Shown here piece after piece: positions 716-11,364 of a stretch of 11,697 nucleotides of DNA. Under the pieces are notes generated by a model. That model did no database searches and had not been told where the DNA came from. It saw only the letters and a list, made by a program, of their open reading frames with translations. Source of the stretch: Trueperaceae bacterium (GTDB taxonomy: Bacteria; Deinococcota; Deinococci; Deinococcales; Trueperaceae); assembly GCA_024636105.1 (NCBI GenBank), contig JAGXHO010000025.1:1-11697 (forward strand). The letters run 5' to 3'. Within the stretch, counting starts at the first letter, position 1. Each line of letters starts with the position of its first letter. Position numbers and translations under genes: made by a program.

Positions 716-1660
716 ATGCGCGAGCGTGCCGCACGGATCCTGAACTTGGTCGCCGACCGCTACGTGCGCACGGCCCGTCCGGTGCCGTCCGCGACGGTCG
801 CGGCCGCGCTCGACGTGTCGAGCGCGACGGTGCGCAGCGCGTTCGGCGTCCTCGAGGACGAGGGGCTGCTGCACCAGCCGCACACCTCCGCCGGGCGCAT
901 CCCCACCGCCCTGGGGTTCCGGCGCTACGCCGATGCGTTCCTTCCCCCCGAGCCGCTTCCGCCCATCGCGCTCGCCGTGCTGCAGCGCCGATTGGCCGGT
1001 GCCCACGGCGACGCGCTCCTGCAGCAGCTCGCGCAGGTGGCGGCCGAGCTCTCCGGCTACGCGGTGGTCGTCCGCGTGCCGACCGACCCCCACGTGCACG
1101 CCCTCGAGATCCACCTGTCGCTGCTGCACGCCCGGGCGCTGCTCGCGGTCGTCGTGCTCGCCAACGGCCTCGTTCGCCAAGTGCGGGTCGACGTCGACCC
1201 GTCGCCCGACGACGAGGTGCTGGGCAGCGCCGAACGCCACCTTCGGCAGTTGACGCTCCCGGTCGCGGACGTACCCCACGCCCTCGCGGCGCTCGCGGCG
1301 CAGGCGGAACCGGAGTTGGCGCGCACGCTGCGCGCGATCCACGACGCCTGGCCCGAAGTCGCGCCGCCTCGGGTCGTCTCGGCCGGATTGTCGAACGTGC
1401 TCAACGAACCCGAAGCGCGCGACCCGGCGTTCGTCCGCCTGGTGGTGGAACGCGTCGAGCGACCGGCGACGACCGGACCGCTCGACGACGGGCTGCGGTT
1501 GGACTGGGACCAGGGGCTCGCGGCCGTCGCGACGCGGTGGAGCGATGGGCTGGACGGCACCTTGACGCTGGTGGGGCCGGCGCGGTTGCGGTACGGGCGC
1601 GCGCTCCAAGTGGTGGGCGGGGTCGCCCGAGCGCTGCGCGACGGGCCGACGCCCGCATGA
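716..1660 (+). CDS. hrcA: Heat-inducible transcription repressor HrcA
   Basis: The 314-aa product matches HrcA from end to end. Residues 1-75 form the winged helix-turn-helix, with RILNLVADRYVRTARPVPS (7-25), SSATVRSAFGVLEDEGLL (35-52) and the HTSAGRIPTALGFRRYAD signature (56-73). The central GAF-like part spans about residues 85-280. The C-terminal motifs GLSNVLNEPE (224-233) and GTLTLVGPARLRYGRAL (281-297) are present. HrcA represses groESL, dnaK or similar chaperone operons by binding the CIRCE inverted repeat, and depends on GroEL for activity. The product is slightly shorter than the usual 330-350 aa. ATG 716 is chosen because HrcA homology starts there; upstream codons in this frame lie within the EVE gene and show none. 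No CIRCE element is seen in front of the gene, and grpE, dnaK and dnaJ are not in the window, so its targets lie elsewhere. Confidence 0.93.
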   Translation: MRERAARILNLVADRYVRTARPVPSATVAAALDVSSATVRSAFGVLEDEGLLHQPHTSAGRIPTALGFRRYADAFLPPEPLPPIALAVLQRRLAGAHGDALLQQLAQVAAELSGYAVVVRVPTDPHVHALEIHLSLLHARALLAVVVLANGLVRQVRVDVDPSPDDEVLGSAERHLRQLTLPVADVPHALAALAAQAEPELARTLRAIHDAWPEVAPPRVVSAGLSNVLNEPEARDPAFVRLVVERVERPATTGPLDDGLRLDWDQGLAAVATRWSDGLDGTLTLVGPARLRYGRALQVVGGVARALRDGPTPA

Positions 1661-1731
1661 CGGCTGCCCCGTTCGATGCCGCGGTCGCGGGTCGATCGGC
1701 ATACGGGCCGAACGTACCGGCGGGCGAGGAT

Positions 1732-1764
1732 TTCACAGCCATCGCGAGGGCCAAGACCTATCGT
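1732..1764 (+). promoter_or_regulatory. Weak promoter-like pair upstream of the roadblock gene
   Basis: The 233-bp gap between hrcA and the next gene holds TTCACA (1732-1737, five of six bases of TTGACA) and TATCGT (1759-1764, which fits TAnnnT). The spacing of 21 bp is too long for a good promoter. A start near 1771 would leave a leader of about 120 bases before ATG 1894. I see no stem-loop with a T-run and no other gene in the gap. This is only a suggestion. Confidence 0.2.
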
Positions 1765-1893
1765 GAGCAGCGGTCTGGACGGAACCGGGCGGGCGCGCCC
1801 GCGGTCGGGGCGAACCCCGGTCGCATTTCGAAACGCACGACGCAGCCGACCCGTGCGCGTTCGCGCCCGGGCGGTCGGATGGGGGACGTGGAG

Positions 1894-2610
1894 ATGCCGA
1901 ACGCGGTGTACGAGCGCACGCGGGTCGCTTTGACGGGCTTGCTGCCCGGTCGTGCGGCGACGACGGTGCTCGACCGCGCGCTCGCGCGCCACCACCGTTC
2001 GAGCGAGGACGTCGGGCCGAAGGAGATGGCGAGGGTTCTGATGAAGGGCGTCTACGGCGAGCTCAAGGGCGTGCTCCCCGACCCCGGCCTGCGCCGCGCG
2101 CTGCGGCGCGTGGCGCGCGACGTCGCGGCCATGGTGCCGCGCGGCGCCACGACGAGCCAAGTACGCGCCGCACGCGAGCGCCTCGCCGGGTCTGCCGCGA
2201 CGGTCGCCGAGCCGGCTCCAGCGCTCGTCGCCGTCGCCGCAGCGCCGACCATCCCCGCCGTGGCGCGGCCCGCGGAGGGCGTGCGCGCGCCCGCCCTCGA
2301 TGCGGAGCGGTTGCTCGCCCGCCTGGTCGAGATCGACGGCGTCCACGGCGTCGGGCGCTTCGACGGCGCCGGCCGCCCGCTACAGGTGCTGGGCCGACTC
2401 CCGGAACCCGATCGCCTGGGGGGCTTCCTCGCCGCTGCAGCGAGCCTGCTGGAGCGACGCGACGCCCTGCGCACCGTGACCGTCGAGGTGCCCAACGGGC
2501 GACTCGTCGCCGTCCCCACCCACCCGCATTGGCTTGCCCTCACGGGCGCCGCCGACCTCAACCTCGGCGCGGTCTACGCAGCGCTCTCGGCGCTGGAGGA
2601 GGAACGATGA
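1894..2610 (+). CDS. Roadblock/LC7-like domain protein with a conserved N-terminal helical domain
   Basis: The 238-aa product has no signal peptide or membrane segment and is probably cytoplasmic. Residues 1-80 form a helical domain starting MPNAVYER and including VLMKGVYGELKGVLPD (48-63). Residues 81-135 are an Ala/Pro-rich linker. Residues 138-238 fit a roadblock/LC7 fold: VEIDGVHGVGRFDGAGRPL (145-163), a helix (172-190), and paired strands TVTVEVPNGRLVAVP (194-208) and HWLALTG (212-218) before a final helix. The N-terminal domain is a paralogue of residues 1-82 of the coiled-coil protein at 4513-7545, which also ends in a roadblock-like domain. Roadblock proteins such as MglB usually dimerise and regulate small GTPases, but no GTPase gene is here. 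ATG 1894 is preferred because GGGGGA (1881-1886) sits seven bases before it and the paralogue begins TPNPLY. ATG 1879 would add five residues. The stop overlaps the next start (ATGA). I do not recognise a named family. Confidence 0.82.
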   Translation: MPNAVYERTRVALTGLLPGRAATTVLDRALARHHRSSEDVGPKEMARVLMKGVYGELKGVLPDPGLRRALRRVARDVAAMVPRGATTSQVRAARERLAGSAATVAEPAPALVAVAAAPTIPAVARPAEGVRAPALDAERLLARLVEIDGVHGVGRFDGAGRPLQVLGRLPEPDRLGGFLAAAASLLERRDALRTVTVEVPNGRLVAVPTHPHWLALTGAADLNLGAVYAALSALEEER

Positions 2611-4484
2611 ACGCTCGCACCCTTCGTCTCGCACTGGCCGCGATCGCCGCGATCGCCCTGGCCACGGCGGCCTGGGCGCAGGACCAGGACGCATACCTCC
2701 AGCGCTACGGCATCGCCGTGGACGGCCTTCGGAACGCGGTCGCCACGGTCGGAGACGATCCGATCACCGCGCGCGAGGGGATCGACCGCGCGTTCAACGC
2801 GCTCCTGACGCTGTCGCGCGACGCGACGGGCTCGACCTTGGTCAGCGCCATGGAGCGCGTCTTCGAGCGTGCCCGGACGGCGATCGCCAACGGAAGCGCC
2901 GACGACCTGGCCGTGCAAGCAGCCGTTCTCGAGGGTGGCTTCCAGCGGCTGGCGTACGAGTCCGCGCTGTCCGCCGCCCTGGCCGGCGATCTGCCGCTCG
3001 CCCGCGCGCGCTTGGGACGGGTCGCCAGCGACATCGGTTTCGCGGAGTCCGATCGCGCCGCCATCGCCGACCCGGCCCAGCCGGCGAGCGTGCTGCGCTT
3101 CCAGGTGGAAACCGGGATCGCCGCCGTGATGAGCACCCGCCTGGCGGTCGCGCGCGAGCTCGCGGCGACCAACCCTGGGGGCGCGTACCGATCGCTCGCC
3201 CGCGCCTACGGCCACTTCCTCCTGGTGCAGGATTCGCCGCGGGCCGCCGGCACCATCAACCAAGGGTTCGTCGACGCCGCCTCGGCGCTGGTCGGCGACG
3301 ACCCCGCCGGCGTCGTCGCCGCCCTCGAGCGGGTCGAGGCGGAGGTCACCGCGCTCGGCGTAGCCGCGCGCGAGCGCCGCGCCTCGGTGCCCGGCGCCGG
3401 CGTCGTCGGCGAAGCGCAGCCGAGCCTGCTGCCGAGCGTCGTGACGGAAGCCGACGAAGCCGCCGTCGATGCGCCGGACGACGCGGTCGCAGCCGACGAC
3501 GCGAACGATGCCGTCGACGCCACGCTCCTGGTCGAGGCCACCGAGCCGGCCGCGATCACCGAAGCCGAACTGACCGCGCTCCTGCTCGCGCGTGAGGAGG
3601 CCGCTCGGCGCGAACGGCTCGATCGGCTCGAGGCGGACCTGGCCAGCACGGGCATGGCGGTCCAGGCCCATGCCGCGCACGCGGAGCGGCTGCTCGACGC
3701 AGGCTACGAGACGTTCGACGCTGCCCTGGGCGCGCTCGACGGCGCCTCGGCGCGCGTCGTGGCCGCCAGCCATCGGGGCGCCGACGCCGACGCCCACGCG
3801 GCGTTGGCCGAAGTGGCCACGGCGTACGCGGCGTACGTCGCACCGGTTCTCCGACCCCGCGACAGCGCGCTCGACACCGACACCATCGGACTCCTCGATC
3901 GCCTTGCCGACGCGCGCCCCCTGCGCGTCCAGGACGCCGTCGTGCTCTCGGGCCAGATCGAAGCAGTGCGTCAGGCCAGCTCGGGTGCGGCGCCGAGTGC
4001 GATCCAGCGCGGCGCACGCACCACGACGACCCTGTGGTCCGGGCTGCCACGCGCCGTGCTCACGCTGGCGATCGGGCTCTTGGCCCTGGTGCCGCTGTTC
4101 CTGCTGAACGTCGCGTTCGGTGGTGGCAACCGGCATTGGCAAGCGATCGGCGTGGCGCTCCTGCTGCTGCTCATCCCCGCGCTCTACGAGGGCCTCGTCG
4201 GGCTCGGCGGCGTGCTTGCCGCGCTCGCCGGCGTCGATGCCCTGCTGCCGCTCGCCGCCTTCTCGATCTTCTCGAGCGCGGCAGCTCAGACGGTGTGGGC
4301 CACGACGACGCTCCTCGCGGTCGTCTTCGCGACGGTCGGCCTCATCGGCATCTCGCGCCAGTTCGGCCTCCTCGGTGGCCGCCGCGGTCGCGGCGGCACA
4401 GCGAAGGCATCGGCCGGCTCGGCGAGGGCGACGTCCGGCACCGCCGGTACGGCCGCCACGGTGGATTGGGACGACGAGCTCTGA
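2607..4484 (+). CDS. Exported membrane protein with a large helical extracytoplasmic domain, unknown family
   Basis: The 625-aa product starts with a clear Sec signal peptide (residues 1-25; hydrophobic core about 8-22, AWAQ cleavage-like site). Residues 26-265 are mostly helical and Ala-rich, perhaps repeat-like. Residues 275-320 are a low-complexity acidic Asp/Ala/Val linker. Residues 320-410 are helical and possibly coiled coil. Hydrophobic spans follow at about 483-504, 512-530 and 562-582, with a further weakly hydrophobic stretch between the last two. The basic GGRRGRGG after the last span argues that the tail ends in the cytoplasm, closing with the acidic WDDEL. The product would therefore expose about 450 residues outside and a tail of about 40 residues inside. 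The start overlaps the preceding stop (ATGA), and GGAGGAGG lies at 2595-2602, so it is translationally coupled to the roadblock gene. I recognise no catalytic motif and no named family. Its position between two roadblock-domain genes suggests it is their membrane partner. Confidence 0.85.
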   Translation: MNARTLRLALAAIAAIALATAAWAQDQDAYLQRYGIAVDGLRNAVATVGDDPITAREGIDRAFNALLTLSRDATGSTLVSAMERVFERARTAIANGSADDLAVQAAVLEGGFQRLAYESALSAALAGDLPLARARLGRVASDIGFAESDRAAIADPAQPASVLRFQVETGIAAVMSTRLAVARELAATNPGGAYRSLARAYGHFLLVQDSPRAAGTINQGFVDAASALVGDDPAGVVAALERVEAEVTALGVAARERRASVPGAGVVGEAQPSLLPSVVTEADEAAVDAPDDAVAADDANDAVDATLLVEATEPAAITEAELTALLLAREEAARRERLDRLEADLASTGMAVQAHAAHAERLLDAGYETFDAALGALDGASARVVAASHRGADADAHAALAEVATAYAAYVAPVLRPRDSALDTDTIGLLDRLADARPLRVQDAVVLSGQIEAVRQASSGAAPSAIQRGARTTTTLWSGLPRAVLTLAIGLLALVPLFLLNVAFGGGNRHWQAIGVALLLLLIPALYEGLVGLGGVLAALAGVDALLPLAAFSIFSSAAAQTVWATTTLLAVVFATVGLIGISRQFGLLGGRRGRGGTAKASAGSARATSGTAGTAATVDWDDEL

Positions 4485-4512
4485 ACGACGACCGCCCCGC
4501 GCGGGTGCGCCC

Positions 4513-7500
4513 GTGACGCCGAACCCGCTGTACCAGGGGCTCGTGCGCGAGCTCGAGGCGGTCATGGCGCCGCGGATCGCGTCGCGGGTCCTCCGTGAGG
4601 GCCTCGCGGCGGTCGGCGCCGACCCGGAGACGCTGACGACGGAGGGCGCCGAAACGCTCCTGAAGGGAAGCGTCTTTCGGCAACTGCAGACCGGACGCCC
4701 CCCCGATCAGGCCCGCGCCGCGATCGGCGAGATCGTGGAGCGCCTCAAGAAGTCCGTCGCCGAGCCGCCTGCGAAACCCGTCGTCGCGCCGTCGCGACCG
4801 CATACCGGGCCGGCGGGCCCGACCACGCCGGGCGCGGGCGCGCCGCCTCCCGGCTCGGACGCCCCGACCGCGACCGCACCGCCCGACGCGCGCGACGCTG
4901 CGACCGTCGCAGCGGAGAAGGACCGCATCGACGCGCTCCGGGCCGAGCTGAGGCCGCTCAACATGTACTTCGGATGGGCGGAGGTCCGCAAGCTCCGGGC
5001 CCAGCTGCAGCTCGTCGACGAAGAGCTCGGTGCCGGCCGCGACCCCACCGGCCTGGTGGACGACGCCGAAGCGCAGCTCGAAGTGGTCCAGCGGAAGCTC
5101 GAGGACCACCTGGTGCTCCAGGCACGCGACCTCGCCGACCTGGAGGAGTCGCTGGAGGTCGTCGCCGGCCTGGGCGGCAACCGGGTTCGGCGCCTCGAGT
5201 CGCTCGTCGCCACCGTGCGCGACGCCCAGGCGCAGCGCACGATCGCCGAGGGCGAGGTGGAACGCGCCCAGAAGCTCGCGCGCGACCTGCGCAAGCTCGT
5301 CGAGTCCTCGGTCTTGGACGAGGGCGAGGCGCCACCCGACCTCGGCCGCGGCGACGGTCGCCGCACGCTTCGGCGCGACGGCGACTTGCGTCCGCGCGAG
5401 CGTCCCGGGCCGCCACGAGCAGACGCGCCCCCGTCCGCGGACGCTCCGTCCGCCGCCGGGCTCGAGGAGCTGGACGAGGTCGCCGCGGAGGTCGCCGGGA
5501 TCGACCCGAGCACCCTCGCGCCCGAAGTCAGCGAACGCCTGCGCGCGCTCGACGTCGATGGCGAGCGACGCGCGCTCGAGACCCTCGCCGTGCGGTACGC
5601 GGAGGTCGTCCGCTACGCGCCCGACCATGAGGCGACGTTCGCCGCCGTGCGCGCGGCGCACGCCGACGGCCGCCCGGCCACCGACGACTTGGCCGCCTTC
5701 GAAGCGGCGTTGAAGGTCGAGGAGGCCGCGCGGCGCGACGCGCTGCGGCGCGAGTTCGCGGCGCTGCGCGACGAGCTCGAAGGCCTCTCCGAAGCGACCG
5801 ACGTCACCGACGTGCGGCGCGCGATCCACGTGGTGCTGGACGTGGTCAACGAGGCGCTTCCGGCGCTCGACGACGTCACCGCCGCGCGCGACCTGCACGC
5901 CGAGATCGCGGAGCGCGCGGCGACGGCGCAGCGAACCGCTGCCGACGCGCAGCGCCGTCGCCTCGACCTGTTGGGCCAACGCGACGTCCTGCGCGGCCGG
6001 CTCGACGCGGCGCTCGCCCGCGCTCCCGAGGGCATCGGCGACGCGTCCGACGACCCCCTCGGGAGCGCTTGGCGCGCGCTGAGCGAAGCGCGCGAGGCCC
6101 TGGACGACGACGAGGCGGTCGACCCGGGTTCCCTCGAACGGGGGCGCGACGCCGAGGCCGCATGGGAGCGGGCCCTGGCCGAGTCGAGCGACGACCGGTA
6201 CGAGCGCCTGCGGGCGCGCGCGCGCGAGCTCGCGGCCCGGCTCGGTCAGCTGCCCGACCTGCCGTCGCTGCACGCGCGCCGGGCGTCCCTGGAGCCCGAG
6301 CTCGCTGCGCTGGAAGGCCTGCCCGACCTCACCCCAGCGCACGTGCGCACGCTGGGATCGATCGTGGACCAGCTGTTCGACGACGCGCGCGCCGCCTGCG
6401 CCCGGCGGCTCGACGAGCTCGGGCGCTCGGTCGGCGACGCGGCGCCCGAGACGCTGCTGCGCACCCTGCAGGCCGCTGCGCGCGCGCTCGAGAACGGCGC
6501 CTTCCCGGACCTTCCCGCGCTCGAAGCCGAGGTCCAAGCGGCCGGCGACGAGCGCCGATCCGACGCCCGTCGGCGCTACCTGCGGGCGCGGCAGGAGGCG
6601 CGGCGCCTGGTGCCCGCCGGCACGCCGCGCACGGCGGACCTGGAAGCCGCCGTCACGGACGCACGAGCCGCCGTCGATGGGGACGCCGATCCGGAGCCGG
6701 CCGTCGCCCGGCTGGAGGCGTTGATCGGCGCCGTCGAGGGCGAGGTCACCGAGCGACTCGAGGCGTTCGGCGCGCGCCTGGACGACGCCCTCGCGCGCTT
6801 CCGGCGCGTGGCGCTGCTGAACAACGACGACGTCGCCGCGGCGCGGCGGGTGCTCACCCACCTCGATGGCCAGCGTGCCGCAGTGGGGCGCGTCTCGCTC
6901 GGCCTGCAGGCGCGCCTGTTCACGGCGCTCGGCGAGGCCGAGACGCGCATCGAAGGGCTGCAAGAGGCGTACGAGGCCACCCGCGCGATCGCCGATCAGC
7001 TGGTAGCGGGGAACCTGCTCGACGAGGTCCTCGGTGGCTTCGACGCCCTGTTCGGCGGCTCCACGGCCACCTCGGACGACGCCCCGGCGACGGCGGCGCG
7101 CCCACCCGAGGCGTCCGTGCCGCTCGCCGATCCGGCGAGCGACACGGCGCCGGCCGGACGGCTCTCGTCGGCGTGGGCGCCGTACCTCGACCTCGACGGT
7201 ACGGCGGGTGCCGTGATCCTCGATGCCGACGGCACGATCCGAGCGGGCCGACCCGCGCCGGGCAGCGACGTCCCGGCGATCGCTCGCTCGCTCGCGGAGG
7301 CGCGCGCCACGTGGACGCGCCTCGGCGACCAGCTGGGCGACGGCACGCCGGAAGTGGCCGTGCTCGACGCCGGCGGCCCACCGACGGTCGTCGCGCCGCT
7401 CGAAGACGTCGGCCACGCCATCGTCTGGACGACGAGCCCGGGGATGGGGGCGAGCATCGGTCGCAAGCTGCGCGACGACCACAGCGTGCTCGTCGCCTTG

Positions 7501-7545
7501 CTGCGCGAGGCCGCCGTAGATACCCGCGAGCATGGACCTACCTGA
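4513..7545 (+). CDS. Giant coiled-coil protein capped by a paralogous N-terminal domain and a roadblock-like C-terminus
   Basis: The 1010-aa product begins at GTG 4513, chosen because the N-terminus TPNPLYQGL then aligns with the MPNAVYER start of the protein at 1894. Residues 1-82 repeat that helical domain (LLKGSVFRQLQTGRPPD at 49-65 against LMKGVYGELKGVLPD). Residues 83-130 are a Pro/Ala linker. Residues 133-270 are charged helix with NMYFGWAEVRKLRAQL (150-165) and a coiled-coil pattern; 270-315 are an Arg/Asp/Pro linker. Residues 315-845 are Ala/Glu/Arg/Leu-rich and strongly helical, and 850-885 are disordered. Residues 888-1000 look like a roadblock fold: LDGTAGAVILDADGTIRAG (894-912), EVAVLDAGGPPTVVAPL (947-963), HAIVWTT (968-974). 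There is no Walker A or B motif, so it is not an SMC ATPase. There is no signal peptide or membrane span. The gap to the upstream gene is 28 bp, and the 3' end overlaps tsaE by 14 bp. I infer a structural or scaffolding role; the family is not known to me. Confidence 0.82.
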   Translation: MTPNPLYQGLVRELEAVMAPRIASRVLREGLAAVGADPETLTTEGAETLLKGSVFRQLQTGRPPDQARAAIGEIVERLKKSVAEPPAKPVVAPSRPHTGPAGPTTPGAGAPPPGSDAPTATAPPDARDAATVAAEKDRIDALRAELRPLNMYFGWAEVRKLRAQLQLVDEELGAGRDPTGLVDDAEAQLEVVQRKLEDHLVLQARDLADLEESLEVVAGLGGNRVRRLESLVATVRDAQAQRTIAEGEVERAQKLARDLRKLVESSVLDEGEAPPDLGRGDGRRTLRRDGDLRPRERPGPPRADAPPSADAPSAAGLEELDEVAAEVAGIDPSTLAPEVSERLRALDVDGERRALETLAVRYAEVVRYAPDHEATFAAVRAAHADGRPATDDLAAFEAALKVEEAARRDALRREFAALRDELEGLSEATDVTDVRRAIHVVLDVVNEALPALDDVTAARDLHAEIAERAATAQRTAADAQRRRLDLLGQRDVLRGRLDAALARAPEGIGDASDDPLGSAWRALSEAREALDDDEAVDPGSLERGRDAEAAWERALAESSDDRYERLRARARELAARLGQLPDLPSLHARRASLEPELAALEGLPDLTPAHVRTLGSIVDQLFDDARAACARRLDELGRSVGDAAPETLLRTLQAAARALENGAFPDLPALEAEVQAAGDERRSDARRRYLRARQEARRLVPAGTPRTADLEAAVTDARAAVDGDADPEPAVARLEALIGAVEGEVTERLEAFGARLDDALARFRRVALLNNDDVAAARRVLTHLDGQRAAVGRVSLGLQARLFTALGEAETRIEGLQEAYEATRAIADQLVAGNLLDEVLGGFDALFGGSTATSDDAPATAARPPEASVPLADPASDTAPAGRLSSAWAPYLDLDGTAGAVILDADGTIRAGRPAPGSDVPAIARSLAEARATWTRLGDQLGDGTPEVAVLDAGGPPTVVAPLEDVGHAIVWTTSPGMGASIGRKLRDDHSVLVALLREAAVDTREHGPT

Positions 7546-7954
7546 CCTCGCCGCCACCCGTGCCCACGCCGCCTCGACCGCGGCGCGCCTTCCGACCGGG
7601 GCGCTGCTGATCTTGACCGGACCGCTCGGTGCCGGCAAGACGACGTACGTCGCCGCCATGGCCGCCGCCCTCGGAAGCGTCGCCGACGTGACCAGCCCGA
7701 CCTACACGCTCGTCCACGAGTACCCCACGCCAGACGGACCGCTCGTCCACGTCGACGCCTATCGGCTCGATCCGGCGCTCGACGTCGACGCCGCGCTCGA
7801 CCTCGGCGACGCCCGCGACCGCGCTCGCGCGGTGGTGGTCGAGTGGGGGCGCGCGCTGCTCGACCACCATCCGGAAGCCTGGCATCTGGAGCTCAGCCGC
7901 GTGGGCGAACGGCGACGCGCCGTCTGGCATCGCCCGGCTGGCGGTCCAACTTGA
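7532..7954 (+). CDS. tsaE: tRNA t6A biosynthesis ATPase TsaE
   Basis: The 140-aa product is a typical, slightly short TsaE (YjeE) P-loop protein. It has the Walker A motif GPLGAGKTT (30-38), the family signature TSPTYTLVHEY (54-64), HVDAYRL (73-79) and VVEWG (102-106). TsaE binds and hydrolyses ATP to reset the TsaB-TsaD complex, which puts threonylcarbamoyl on A37 of ANN-decoding tRNAs. The protein is cytoplasmic and generally essential. The start ATG 7532 lies inside the end of the coiled-coil gene (14-bp overlap). The stop shares one base with the tsaB start, so the gene is probably read as part of a multigene transcript from upstream. No strong Shine-Dalgarno sequence is visible, which suggests translational coupling. 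Confidence 0.95.
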   Translation: MDLPDLAATRAHAASTAARLPTGALLILTGPLGAGKTTYVAAMAAALGSVADVTSPTYTLVHEYPTPDGPLVHVDAYRLDPALDVDAALDLGDARDRARAVVVEWGRALLDHHPEAWHLELSRVGERRRAVWHRPAGGPT

Positions 7955-8505
7955 TGCAGCCGCGCTTGGGCATCGACACGGCGACGCCGTATTTGTCGCT
8001 GGCGCTCTGGTGGCCCGCCGACCGGCGGACGGAGCGAGCCTCGGAGCGCGTCGGCCGCGACCTTGGCGCGCGCTTCGTCCCGGCCGTGGCGGCGTTCCTC
8101 GAGGAGCACGGCGTGGCCGTCGAGGACCTGGCGGGCATCGGGGTGGGCGTGGGCCCGGGCTCCTACACCGGCGCCCGGCTCGGGGTCGCGTTCGCGCTCG
8201 GGGTGGCGCGCGCCCGCACGCTGCTCGTCGTCGGCGGCGACAGCGCCGCAGCGCGCGCCGTGGCCACCGTCCCGGACGGCAGCACGGGTTGGGTGGCCAT
8301 GGAGACGCGCCGCGCCACCGCCTTGGCGAGCCGCTGGTCCCGAGCGGGCGACGCGGTCGTGCGGCTCGAGGACCTCGGCGCGCACCCGTTCGCGGAGCTC
8401 CCGGTGGGCGCGATCGCCAGCCTCGACGTCGCTCCCGACGCCGCTCGGCACGCTCGGGCGGTCGACGAGGACGGCGCGGAGCCGCCCCGCGTGCGGTACG
8501 GATGA
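7954..8505 (+). CDS. tsaB: tRNA t6A biosynthesis protein TsaB (short form)
   Basis: The 183-aa product has the ASKHA-fold TsaB signature. LGIDTATPYLSLAL lies at residues 5-18, RDLGARFVPAVAAFLEEHGV at about 35-54, and the key motif GIGVGVGPGSYTGARLGVAFA at 61-81, followed by ALGVARA. TsaB pairs with TsaD and TsaE to make t6A37 on tRNA; it is the non-catalytic partner. The start ATG 7954 overlaps the TsaE stop by one base (TGATG); TTG 7951 is a weaker alternative. The second half is short and divergent: TsaB proteins are more often about 210-230 aa, so part of the C-terminal lobe is reduced here. tsaD and rimI, frequent neighbours in other genomes, are absent from the window. A GC-rich hairpin follows the stop. 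Confidence 0.92.
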   Translation: MQPRLGIDTATPYLSLALWWPADRRTERASERVGRDLGARFVPAVAAFLEEHGVAVEDLAGIGVGVGPGSYTGARLGVAFALGVARARTLLVVGGDSAAARAVATVPDGSTGWVAMETRRATALASRWSRAGDAVVRLEDLGAHPFAELPVGAIASLDVAPDAARHARAVDEDGAEPPRVRYG

Positions 8506-8513
8506 CGGCGCGA

Positions 8514-8533
8514 CCCGCCGCCGGCCGGGCGGG
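8514..8533 (+). terminator. GC-rich hairpin after tsaB
   Basis: CCCGCC (8514-8519) can pair with GGCGGG (8528-8533) across an 8-base loop, starting nine bases after the tsaB stop. There is no T-run after it, so it is not a canonical intrinsic terminator. Such stems also arise easily by chance in sequence this rich in G+C. Its place between tsaB and a promoter-like box is the main reason to list it. Confidence 0.25.
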
Positions 8534-8548
8534 GCGATCGACCACGGG

Positions 8549-8554
8549 TATACT
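8549..8554 (+). promoter_or_regulatory. Probable -10 box of an mreB promoter
   Basis: TATACT at 8549-8554 matches the TATAAT consensus at five of six positions, in a gap of 115 bp that is otherwise almost pure G and C. No good -35 hexamer is found 16-18 bp upstream, and there is no TGn extension. A transcript from here would start near 8561 and leave a leader of about 60 bases before the mreB ATG. This would separate mreB from the tsaE-tsaB transcript. Confidence 0.45.
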
Positions 8555-8620
8555 GCCGCGCGTACCGCGATGGTGGCCGCGAGCGCCGCAGCGCGTGGCG
8601 ACGTCTGGAGCTGATGAGCG

Positions 8621-9652
8621 ATGAGATTCTGGCAGGAGATCGGCGTCGATCTCGGGACCGCGACGGTCCTGATCTACGTCAAGGGGAAGGGCATCATGCT
8701 CCGCGAGCCGTCGGTGATCGCGATGGTGCGCGACACCGGCGAGGTCAAAGCGGTCGGCGACGAGGCCTACCGCATGCTCGGCCGCACGCCCGGCAACATC
8801 GTCGCAGTGCGACCGATGCGCGACGGCGTGATCGCCGATTACGACCTCACCGAGAAGATGCTCAAGGCGTTCGTGCGCAAGGTCGTCACCGGCACGGGGC
8901 GCTTCTTCAAACCCAACATCATGGTGTGCGTCCCCTCGGGCGTCACCGAGGTCGAGCGCCGCGCCGTGCTGCAGGCCACCCGCGAGGTGGGCGCGCGCAA
9001 GGCGTTCCTGATCGAGGAGCCGCTCGCGGCCGCCATCGGCGCCGGCGTCCGCATCGCCGAGCCGACCGGCTCGATGATCGTGGACATCGGCGGCGGCACC
9101 ACCGACATCGCGATCATCTCGCTCGGCGGCATCGTCGTGTCCGAGTCCCTGCGGATCGCCGGCAACGAGTTCGACGAGGCGCTGATCCGGTACATCCGGC
9201 ACAAGGAGAACCTGCTCATCGGCGACCGCACCGCCGAAGAGGTGAAGATGAAGGTCGGTGCCGCCATCGTGGCGCATGCCGACGACGTGCGGGAGATCGA
9301 GGTGCGCGGTCGGGACCTGATCAACGGCCTCCCCAAGACCATCCGCGTGACGACCGAAGACACGGTCGAGGCGCTCAAGGAGCCCGTCCAGAAGATCGCC
9401 GACGGCGTGCGGCGGGTGCTCGAGATGGCGCCGCCGGAGCTGGTGTCCGACGTGATCGACCGCGGGATCATCATGACCGGCGGCGGCGCGCTGCTGCGCA
9501 ACTTCGACGAGTTGCTGCGCCAGACCACCGGCATCCCGGTCTCGGTCGCCGAGAGCCCCACCGATTGCGTGGCGCTCGGCACCGGCCAGGCGCTCGACAT
9601 GATCCCGGTCCTGCAGGACGCGCTGATCTCGGACACCTTCCTGCGCCGGTGA
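8621..9652 (+). CDS. mreB: Rod-shape actin homologue MreB
   Basis: The 343-aa product is full length for MreB. It shows the actin-fold nucleotide motifs: phosphate-1 loop GVDLGTATVLIYVKGKGI (8-25), the conserved CVPSGVTEVERRAV (103-116), IEEPLAAAIGAG (131-142), phosphate-2 loop VDIGGGTTDIAIISLGG (154-170) and the adenosine motif IIMTGGGALLRN (283-294). The N-terminus MRFWQEI could act as a short amphipathic membrane anchor. MreB forms membrane-bound antiparallel filaments that steer the elongasome and lateral wall synthesis. The sequence resembles the Thermus form in my memory (LREPSVIA, YRMLGRTPGNIVAVRP). ATG 8621 has TGGAG ten bases upstream. The usual partners mreC, mreD and mrdA (PBP2) do not follow; instead an exported peptidase-like gene begins 32 bp later, probably in the same transcript. 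Confidence 0.97.
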   Translation: MRFWQEIGVDLGTATVLIYVKGKGIMLREPSVIAMVRDTGEVKAVGDEAYRMLGRTPGNIVAVRPMRDGVIADYDLTEKMLKAFVRKVVTGTGRFFKPNIMVCVPSGVTEVERRAVLQATREVGARKAFLIEEPLAAAIGAGVRIAEPTGSMIVDIGGGTTDIAIISLGGIVVSESLRIAGNEFDEALIRYIRHKENLLIGDRTAEEVKMKVGAAIVAHADDVREIEVRGRDLINGLPKTIRVTTEDTVEALKEPVQKIADGVRRVLEMAPPELVSDVIDRGIIMTGGGALLRNFDELLRQTTGIPVSVAESPTDCVALGTGQALDMIPVLQDALISDTFLRR

Positions 9653-9684: not shown

Positions 9685-11364
9685 GTGAGCGGGATGCGCG
9701 GCACCCTGCGCGACGCCGCCTTCGCGCTGGCGCTCCTCGCTCTGGCGCTGGTCGCGGGCGCCTTCGCCCAGGAGCGCGCGAACGACCCCACGACCTGGCC
9801 GGCGTTCCCGCTCGACGCGCTCGAACCCGGCCTCCGCGGGTACGGCCTCACCGAAGGTCCCGCGGGCATCGAGCGCTTCGACGTGGAGGTGCTCGCGGTG
9901 CAGAATGGGTTCGGCCTCGGGTTCCCGCTCGTGCTGGTGCGCGCCTCGGGTGGCCTGGTCGACGTGGGCGGCGGCGTGTCCGCCGGCATGAGCGGTAGCC
10001 CGGTGGTCCTCGGCGCGGGCCCCGACGAGCGACTGCTCGGCGCGATCGGCTACGTCTTCCCCGACTCGACCGGCGGCCTCGCCCTGGTCACGCCGATCGA
10101 CGCCATGCGCTCCGGCGACGGCAGCGGCGCGACGGCCGCGGCGCTCGCCGAGCACGGGGCCGTGCCGGTGGCGACCCCGCTGCTCGTGTCGGGGCTCGGG
10201 GTGCGCGCGCTGGCGCTGCTGCAGAGCAGCGTCCTGGCGCGCGGTGCGACCCCGATCCAAGCCGTGCAGGGTGGCGGAGGGCGCGCCGTCGCGACCGAGC
10301 CTCCGAGGCCCGGCTCGGCGGTCGCCGTCCAGTGGGTGCGCGGGGACGTCGATATCGGTGCGGTCGGGACCGCCACCGAGGTCGACGGCGACCGCGTGCT
10401 CGCCTTCGGGCACCCCGTGCTCGGCATCGGGCCCGTCGATTGGCCGCTCGCGCGCGCAGCCATCACGGCCGTCGTGGCGAACCGGACGATGCCGTTCAAG
10501 CTCGCGAACACCACCGCCGAGAGCATCGGAGCGATCGACCAAGACCGTCCGGCCGCGATCGGCGGTCGTCTGGGCGGGGTGGCCGATCTGTTGCCGGTCA
10601 CCCTCACCGTGGCGTACGGCGACGCTACCGAGGCGCTCCGATTCGACGTCGTGCGCGACGAGGCCCTGTGGCCGACGCTCGTGGCCGTCGCAACGCTCGA
10701 GGCGCTCGACCGGGTGCGCTCCCGCGTCGGCGAGGGAACCGCGACGCTGCACTGGGACGTCACCTTCCCCGCGGGTCCGGGACTCCGCCTCACCGAGGCC
10801 GTCGTCGACGCCGACGACGTCGCGACCGCCGCCGCCCGCCTCGCCGGCGCACCGCTGGCGCTCCTCGCCACGAACCCCTTCGAAGCGACCCAACCGACGC
10901 GCCTGGCGCTGCTGGTGCGGCTCGAGGACCGGCGCCGCGACGTCGAGGTCCGACGCGCGACCGTGAACCCGGGAACCGTCGAGGCGGGCGCCGTGCTTCC
11001 GCTCTTGCTGCGGCTGCAGCCGTGGCGCCGACCCGGCGAGGTCCGCGCCCTGGACGTGCGGCTCCCCGACGACCTGCACGGACGGGTCGAGGTCGTGGTG
11101 CGAGGCGGCACCTTCCCGCGCGAGGCGGACGGCGACGGCCCTCCCGATCCGGACGACGCACCGCTGACGTTCGACGAACTGCTGGCCTTCCTGCGCGACC
11201 GCCCTGGTGGCGGCGACCTGGTCGTCGAGGCGCGCGCCGACGACGGCGAGTGGGTGCGCCTGGAGCGCCTGGCGCTCTCCGGCTACGTGACCGGCCGCGT
11301 CGAGCTGACGCTCGAGGTCGTCCCCCCCGGCGACGAGCCGATGGCCGCCGAGGAGACCCCATGA
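9685..11364 (+). CDS. Exported SpoIVB-type (S55) serine peptidase-like protein
   Basis: The 559-aa product has a signal peptide (residues 1-29, hydrophobic core 11-28, AFAQ before the likely cut), so it works outside the cytoplasmic membrane. Residues 41-145 match the S55 core: PGLRGYGLT (48-56), IERFDVEVLAV (62-72), GGGVSAGMSGSPVVLG (95-110; the nucleophile would be a serine of GMSGSP, 101-106) and LLGAIGYVFP with LVTPIDAM. A second block at about 225-325 reads GTATEVDGDRVLAFGHPVLG (228-247), FKLANTTAESIGAI and GGRLGGVADLLPVTLTV. It carries the candidate histidine, His243. Residues 330-555 look like beta-rich domains. In Bacillus SpoIVB the histidine comes before the serine; here the order is reversed. 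The start may be GTG 9685 or ATG 9694: the purine run near 9678-9683 is too close to the GTG and suits the ATG better. Its role in a non-spore-former is unknown to me. Its stop overlaps the next gene (ATGA). Confidence 0.85.
   Translation: MSGMRGTLRDAAFALALLALALVAGAFAQERANDPTTWPAFPLDALEPGLRGYGLTEGPAGIERFDVEVLAVQNGFGLGFPLVLVRASGGLVDVGGGVSAGMSGSPVVLGAGPDERLLGAIGYVFPDSTGGLALVTPIDAMRSGDGSGATAAALAEHGAVPVATPLLVSGLGVRALALLQSSVLARGATPIQAVQGGGGRAVATEPPRPGSAVAVQWVRGDVDIGAVGTATEVDGDRVLAFGHPVLGIGPVDWPLARAAITAVVANRTMPFKLANTTAESIGAIDQDRPAAIGGRLGGVADLLPVTLTVAYGDATEALRFDVVRDEALWPTLVAVATLEALDRVRSRVGEGTATLHWDVTFPAGPGLRLTEAVVDADDVATAAARLAGAPLALLATNPFEATQPTRLALLVRLEDRRRDVEVRRATVNPGTVEAGAVLPLLLRLQPWRRPGEVRALDVRLPDDLHGRVEVVVRGGTFPREADGDGPPDPDDAPLTFDELLAFLRDRPGGGDLVVEARADDGEWVRLERLALSGYVTGRVELTLEVVPPGDEPMAAEETP

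Follow-up and report, generated by a model that had tools for sequence, protein, structure and literature searches.

Two paralogues with predicted roadblock ends beside a putative exported membrane protein: a candidate membrane-docked module in Deinococcota

What might three consecutive genes, none of which matches a Pfam or NCBIfam family above the cut-off, be doing side by side in a Trueperaceae bacterium? The genes occupy positions 1,894 to 7,545 of contig JAGXHO010000025.1 (assembly GCA_024636105.1), inside a stretch of 11,697 nucleotides that we call the window; their products are called A, B and C. An earlier reading of the letters, made without database searches (the sequence-only reading), had proposed that A and C share both terminal domains and form, with the exported membrane protein encoded between them, a scaffold reaching out from a membrane anchor. 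Our analysis confirms the observation and partly supports its interpretation. The grouping also appears to be undescribed, as that reading had supposed: among the titles listed by literature searches, with most subscription papers outside their coverage, none deals with A, B or C.

All three reading frames are open, with a third-position GC content of 0.89-0.91. Their features are:

1894..2610, plus strand: protein A, 238 amino acids, with a four-helix N-terminal domain, a linker of about 50 residues and a predicted roadblock C-terminal domain (profiles, AlphaFold2)
1894..2145, plus strand: N-terminal helical domain of A, residues 1-84, homologous to the N terminus of C (profile comparison)
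2290..2607, plus strand: predicted roadblock C-terminal domain of A, residues 133-238 (Foldseek/model, profiles)
2607..4484, plus strand: protein B, 625 amino acids, with a signal-peptide-like start, a large, likely external part, membrane spans and a tail (hydropathy)
4032..4376, plus strand: hydrophobic region of B holding the membrane spans, residues 476-590 (hydropathy)
4461..4484, plus strand: conserved C-terminal tip of B, VDWDDEL and stop, corresponding to VEWDEEF in Thermales-type B (alignment, DNA pattern scan)
4513..7545, plus strand: protein C, 1010 amino acids, GTG start, with an A-like N-terminal domain, about 790 mainly helical residues and a predicted roadblock C-terminal domain (profiles, AlphaFold2)
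4513..4770, plus strand: N-terminal helical domain of C, residues 1-86 (profile comparison)
7138..7524, plus strand: predicted roadblock C-terminal domain of C, residues 876-1004 (AlphaFold2 model, profiles)

By the measure of profile comparison, A and C are paralogues at both ends. Plain BLASTP of window A against window C finds nothing (E 0.23), and profiles were therefore needed to see the relationship. The N-terminal domain (N-domain) of A (residues 1-84, 24 sequences) matches that of C (residues 1-86, 28 sequences) over 80 columns with a probability of 99.3 and an E-value of 1.8e-20, against 1.1 for the reversed C profile and at most 3.1 for 13 windows from the middle of C and nine windows of B, which bears out the common N-terminal helical domain of the sequence-only reading. 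Crossed pairs of N- and C-terminal domain profiles give 0.1 and 0.4. When whole A and C alignments are compared, their first 83 columns align (probability 97, E 1.2e-10), and a profile built solely from C picks up the N terminus of A in three of four whole genomes (E 1.9e-10, 6.7e-7 and 6.7e-7). The helices modelled by AlphaFold2 lie at similar positions in the two proteins (4-13, 19-32, 42-58 and 64-78 in A; 5-17, 20-34, 43-58 and 64-83 in C; mean pLDDT of 80 for each model, pTM 0.44 and 0.55). The C N-domain also resembles that of A in each of the five groups tested (94.1-97.8).

The domain is not confined to these two proteins. Genome G005 (locus L084, 4150-6522) encodes a third N-domain protein, which continues into a long low-complexity and helical stretch and in which no roadblock was detected. 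Family and structure searches with the N-domain sequence gave nothing convincing, and the rows of the VIA list span residues 132-238 of A only, so that the N-domain may yet have a known fold. Matches to TetR_C_31 (2 of 24 members, best 1.7e-4), TilS (2 of 24, 0.0026), arcadin-3 (1 of 24, 0.0021) and a designed bundle (0.029) were taken as chance.

At the other end, the C-terminal domains of A and C match each other with a probability of 96.5 (E 9.6e-10; 0.1 when reversed), and the AlphaFold2 models show the strand and helix order of a roadblock at both C termini. Both domains are thus predicted to adopt the roadblock fold, as had been claimed. Sequence matches to the family are faint. Pfam Robl_LC7 does not match window A or window C at an E-value of 1, and it matches relatives weakly: 4 of 28 A sequences (best 4.6e-4), 3 of 13 C sequences (best 0.0046) and 5 of 24 in a wider A set (best 0.0018). 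The A profile weakly matches the roadblock structure 7f8m (0.0012); apart from such weak roadblock matches of A, solved structures searched by sequence yielded nothing convincing. Robl_LC7 matches occur in 102 of 111 genomes, some of them possibly A or C themselves. The 28-member A set comprises window A, 13 of 44 relatives and 14 sequences from loci, and the 13-member C set was drawn from 17 C, the other four being cut by contig ends; P0147 was excluded as frame-shifted by its alignment.

The pair thus looks like one two-domain design with linkers of very different length, about 50 residues in A and about 790 in C, between the same ends. This contrast had been noted before, whereas the description of the long linker as mostly coiled coil did not survive: AlphaFold2 models it as 24 helices of 6-51 residues, which indicates helical bundles and not a single long coiled coil.

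The protein encoded between them does look like an exported membrane protein, as anticipated, with its signal peptide and spans read from hydropathy alone. The N terminus of B is hydrophobic and resembles a signal peptide; three hydrophobic stretches lie near the C terminus in 25 of 27 aligned B sequences and four in the other two, window B included; and K/R residues come after the last span. Provided that the signal peptide is cleaved, three spans followed by positive charge would place the tail in the cytosol. B alignments used 22 of 114 B relatives, and the 27-member set consists of 12 of those 114 and 15 sequences from loci. Matches of B to GltG (2.3e-6), BimA (6.9e-4) and GltJ (0.004) came from 1 of the 27 members each and were set aside.

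After a variable linker, the end of B is nearly fixed across lineages: VEWDEEF in Thermales-type B, and DWDEEF, DWDDEL, DWDDEA, DWDDD and kin in Trueperaceae-type B. Searched as a DNA pattern, the strict tip [DE]W[DE][DE][DE]F followed by a stop was found in 84 of 111 genomes; 83 of them have a single copy and G007 has two. Only one of the 85 places lies away from the end of B: 81 end a B match and three lie just past a partial B match, where the B reading frames do end in the tip. The backwards pattern occurs in none of the 111 genomes. A wider form of the motif is present in 112 of 114 B relatives and in 118 of the 120 B matches listed from a set of 193, the four exceptions being one frame-shifted sequence, two truncated ones and one ending in QWDEEF. 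Because the strict tip is almost confined to this one protein, a docking peptide fits its sequence better than a general sorting tag would. Near uniqueness within each genome also makes the tip a clean handle for finding partners.

Two observations may be recorded here. The sole strict-tip copy away from a B end, G007:C49:1831-1851, has no frame of at least 90 amino acids ending in any of the four tip forms tried. In one Trueperaceae subgroup (L006, L008 and L009), A lacks the P-N-x-x-Y start, and the end of B reads DWDDD or DWDED, with no final aromatic residue. As this is a single clade, and as A of the Meiothermus and Thermus groups likewise lacks P-N-x-x-Y while B retains WDEEF, the joint change is at most a hint.

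The three proteins are widespread. Counted as listed match places in 111 genomes of Deinococcota, A is present in 99, B in 107 and C in 101, and 96 genomes have the complete trio; none of them was found in G101, G106 or G111. Raw tallies were higher (C 105, A 101), with four and two genomes having no listed place, some perhaps N-domain cross-hits, and the lower counts are used here. Group labels of some genomes (G015, G017, G032, G056 and G060 among others) were assigned through likeness only. DdrB, which is typical of the genus Deinococcus, was found in 9 of the 111 genomes, and this genus therefore seems hardly represented. Named A and B relatives from the first searches are Trueperaceae bacteria, and the named B relatives among the matches listed (120 of 193) belong to Meiothermus, Thermus, Marinithermus and kin, nearly all annotated "hypothetical protein". 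No relative from outside the phylum is among the named A and B matches listed, other phyla not having been searched with profiles. Neither B of L070 nor C of L058 had a match among plasmid records.

The link between A and B is particularly tight. In the window, the ATG of B overlaps the stop codon of A, and A directly precedes B on the same strand, at a distance of -50 to 300 bases, in 89 of the 99 genomes with both. Eight of the remaining ten (G006, G007, G065, G067, G077, G081, G082 and G095) are also adjacent when second partial places or frames are counted, and the last two (G020 and G104) lie at contig ends. Among named genomes, a scan turned up 21 loci whose titles give Trueperaceae, Deinococcales, Deinococci or Deinococcota. 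Where the DNA suffices, they keep the order EVE, HrcA, A, B, C, TsaE, TsaB, MreB, S55, with two exceptions: L010 has no EVE match, and L020 has no A by BLAST, although A was recovered there by the wider profile (G096). The conservation predicted for the triad therefore holds for much of the phylum as co-occurrence, and A, B and C are kept together in Trueperaceae-titled loci and several further lineages; it does not extend to a general adjacency of B and C.

Considering (i) the shared domains, (ii) the modelled roadblock folds, (iii) the overlap and adjacency of A and B, (iv) the wide co-occurrence and (v) the near restriction of the strict tip to B, all of which are computed results, we infer contacts between the parts, a cytosolic side for the tail, a scaffold role and a process that it would serve. 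Our tentative proposal, which we rate a little short of an even chance, is that the three proteins make up a membrane-docked roadblock scaffold. B would sit in the inner membrane with its large helical part outside and a flexible linker in the cytosol ending in the acidic-aromatic tip, which would act as a docking peptide. A, whose gene overlaps that of B, would be the short adaptor and C the long arm. Since A and C have the N-domain in common, they most likely bind the same partner, either the tip of B or each other; docking of the N-domain on the tip would put the two steadiest features to their simplest use. Roadblock folds in known cases are dimerising scaffold modules, and the roadblock ends of A and C would most likely pair or bring in another cytosolic factor. 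The envelope would thereby be linked to cytosolic machinery, with C reaching farther than A.

Several findings weigh against this scaffold. C lacks the roadblock end in two Trueperaceae genomes, L002 (5021-7480) and L007 (11348-13840), where its gene stops short of the roadblock and TsaE follows directly; the near relative L003 retains it, and the two truncated forms may serve as natural deletions for learning what the roadblock end does. The C roadblock is not recognisable by comparison with that of A in profiles, of three sequences each, from Thermus, Meiothermus and Marinithermus (0.4, 7.9 and 6.3); the G009-G012 group shows a fair likeness (88.9, against 5.8 for the reversed profile), and G109/G110 a weak one (60.5). 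G109 and G110 carry B and a short C, and no A was found in them. The strict tip pattern is missing from 27 of the 111 genomes, and many B sequences from Trueperaceae end without the final F (DWDDEA, DWDDD). The four hydrophobic stretches of window B, were all of them true spans, would put its tail outside. Finally, B and C are adjacent in 47 of the 100 genomes with both and not in the other 53, some perhaps through contig breaks; in five of these 53 (Thermus G051 and G068; Meiothermus G042, G043 and G045) A and B stay together while C lies apart. Given that the C roadblock is absent or unrecognisable in several lineages, and given G109/G110 in which no A was found and the third N-domain protein of G005, the N-domain and the tip of B are the steadier parts and the C roadblock end is the variable one.

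A more specific version of the scaffold is doubtful, but worth stating. It would be a module joining envelope and cytosol, known to date from Deinococcota alone (the phylum to which profile searches were confined). The tip of B would serve as the docking hub of a new helical N-domain carried by A, C and at least one more protein (that of G005), and the short and long roadblock arms would hold cytosolic machinery nearer to and farther from one and the same membrane anchor. With its functions undescribed and its members together in 96 of 111 genomes, the trio looks like a core part of the envelope-cytosol tie of these bacteria. All three proteins are present in Thermus (G068), and a laboratory strain of Thermus thermophilus is among the B matches listed, which opens the idea to tests in a genus that laboratories work with.

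On the plus strand of the window, the trio is preceded by an EVE-domain gene and an HrcA-like regulator and followed by TsaE, TsaB, MreB, an S55-like gene and the onset of another gene. Three neighbours bear on what follows:

7532..7954, plus strand: TsaE (tRNA t6A), overlapping the end of C; a common neighbour of C, not counted with the trio (family match)
7954..8505, plus strand: TsaB, neighbour (family match)
8621..9652, plus strand: MreB, neighbour, likewise in Trueperaceae-titled loci, G109 and G110 (family match)

The overlaps of A with B and of C with TsaE suggest a single transcription unit from A onward. A simple scan of positions 1500-8700 of the window found no promoter or terminator, and Rfam and tRNA scans of the window were empty. 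The HrcA-like regulator (596-1660; 128.7 bits, NCBIfam cut-off 197.2) lies upstream of A and is kept in Trueperaceae-titled loci. For the protein after MreB (9685-11364), the match to SpoIVB peptidase S55 stays below the cut-off (8.7e-4); this gene follows MreB in all 11 of the 21 titled loci whose DNA extends to it. A 46-nucleotide direct repeat (76-193; two copies 72 bases apart, 96% alike) lies at the start of the EVE-domain frame.

This neighbourhood raises the unlikely, though not far-fetched, reading that the trio serves MreB-guided envelope growth, B sensing or tethering the wall or outer layer and A and C relaying to the MreB machinery, which could also be the process that the scaffold serves. 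MreB follows C, TsaE and TsaB in the window and in 11 of 11 loci (of the 21) that extend past TsaB, and is also present in L063, L064 and L065, three of 20 further loci. However, no MreB match was found in the other 17 of these loci or in 12 A-B loci (L072-L083), and TsaE, a tRNA enzyme, neighbours C equally often, so the neighbourhood by itself says little. MreB-linked envelope growth is a candidate process, on gene order alone.

We give about the same low credence to A and B being the working unit and C a separate long helical duplicate, nearby, where it is so, by inherited gene order only. The adjacency of A and B is near universal and that of B and C is not, and the third N-domain protein of G005, without a detected roadblock, shows that the N-domain also serves outside A and C; yet B and C co-occur in 100 of the 108 genomes having any of the trio, and C retains the A-like N-domain in all five groups tested. 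In the least probable reading, A and C would be MglB-like GTPase regulators, partnered at the membrane by a GTPase resembling MglA. G001, a close relative of the window, has no Robl_LC7 match and an Arf-type match only within a 631-amino-acid frame, so that the trio seems able to do without MglA/MglB there, provided that this genome is complete enough.

How would the membrane-docked scaffold compare with known systems? In the bacterial single-stranded DNA-binding protein SSB, a flexible linker leads to a conserved acidic tip that closes with an aromatic residue, and B may use its tip much as SSB does; SSB, however, is a soluble DNA binder, whereas B is a putative membrane protein. Ragulator/LAMTOR, a eukaryotic, lipid-anchored complex, likewise ties roadblock modules to a membrane, and its p14-MP1 is the best Foldseek match of the A C-terminal domain (1.7e-6; identity 14-20% among the matches listed). 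In the present loci, two predicted roadblock proteins and a putative membrane protein are encoded together; p14-MP1 has neither the four-helix N-domain nor the long helical arm. MglB of Thermus and Myxococcus offers another comparison. It is a small GTPase-activating (GAP) partner of MglA (PMC4316618). A and C would share its roadblock fold and differ in bearing an extra N-domain and in having no small GTPase among the window genes. Actinobacterial conservons (Cvn) have a roadblock protein in a conserved locus alongside signalling partners (PMC4316618), and the roadblock protein in a conserved locus would be the common element. Conservons include a histidine kinase and a small GTPase; neither is among the window genes. 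By analogy, then, the A-B-C module would resemble Ragulator in its logic and MglB in its fold.

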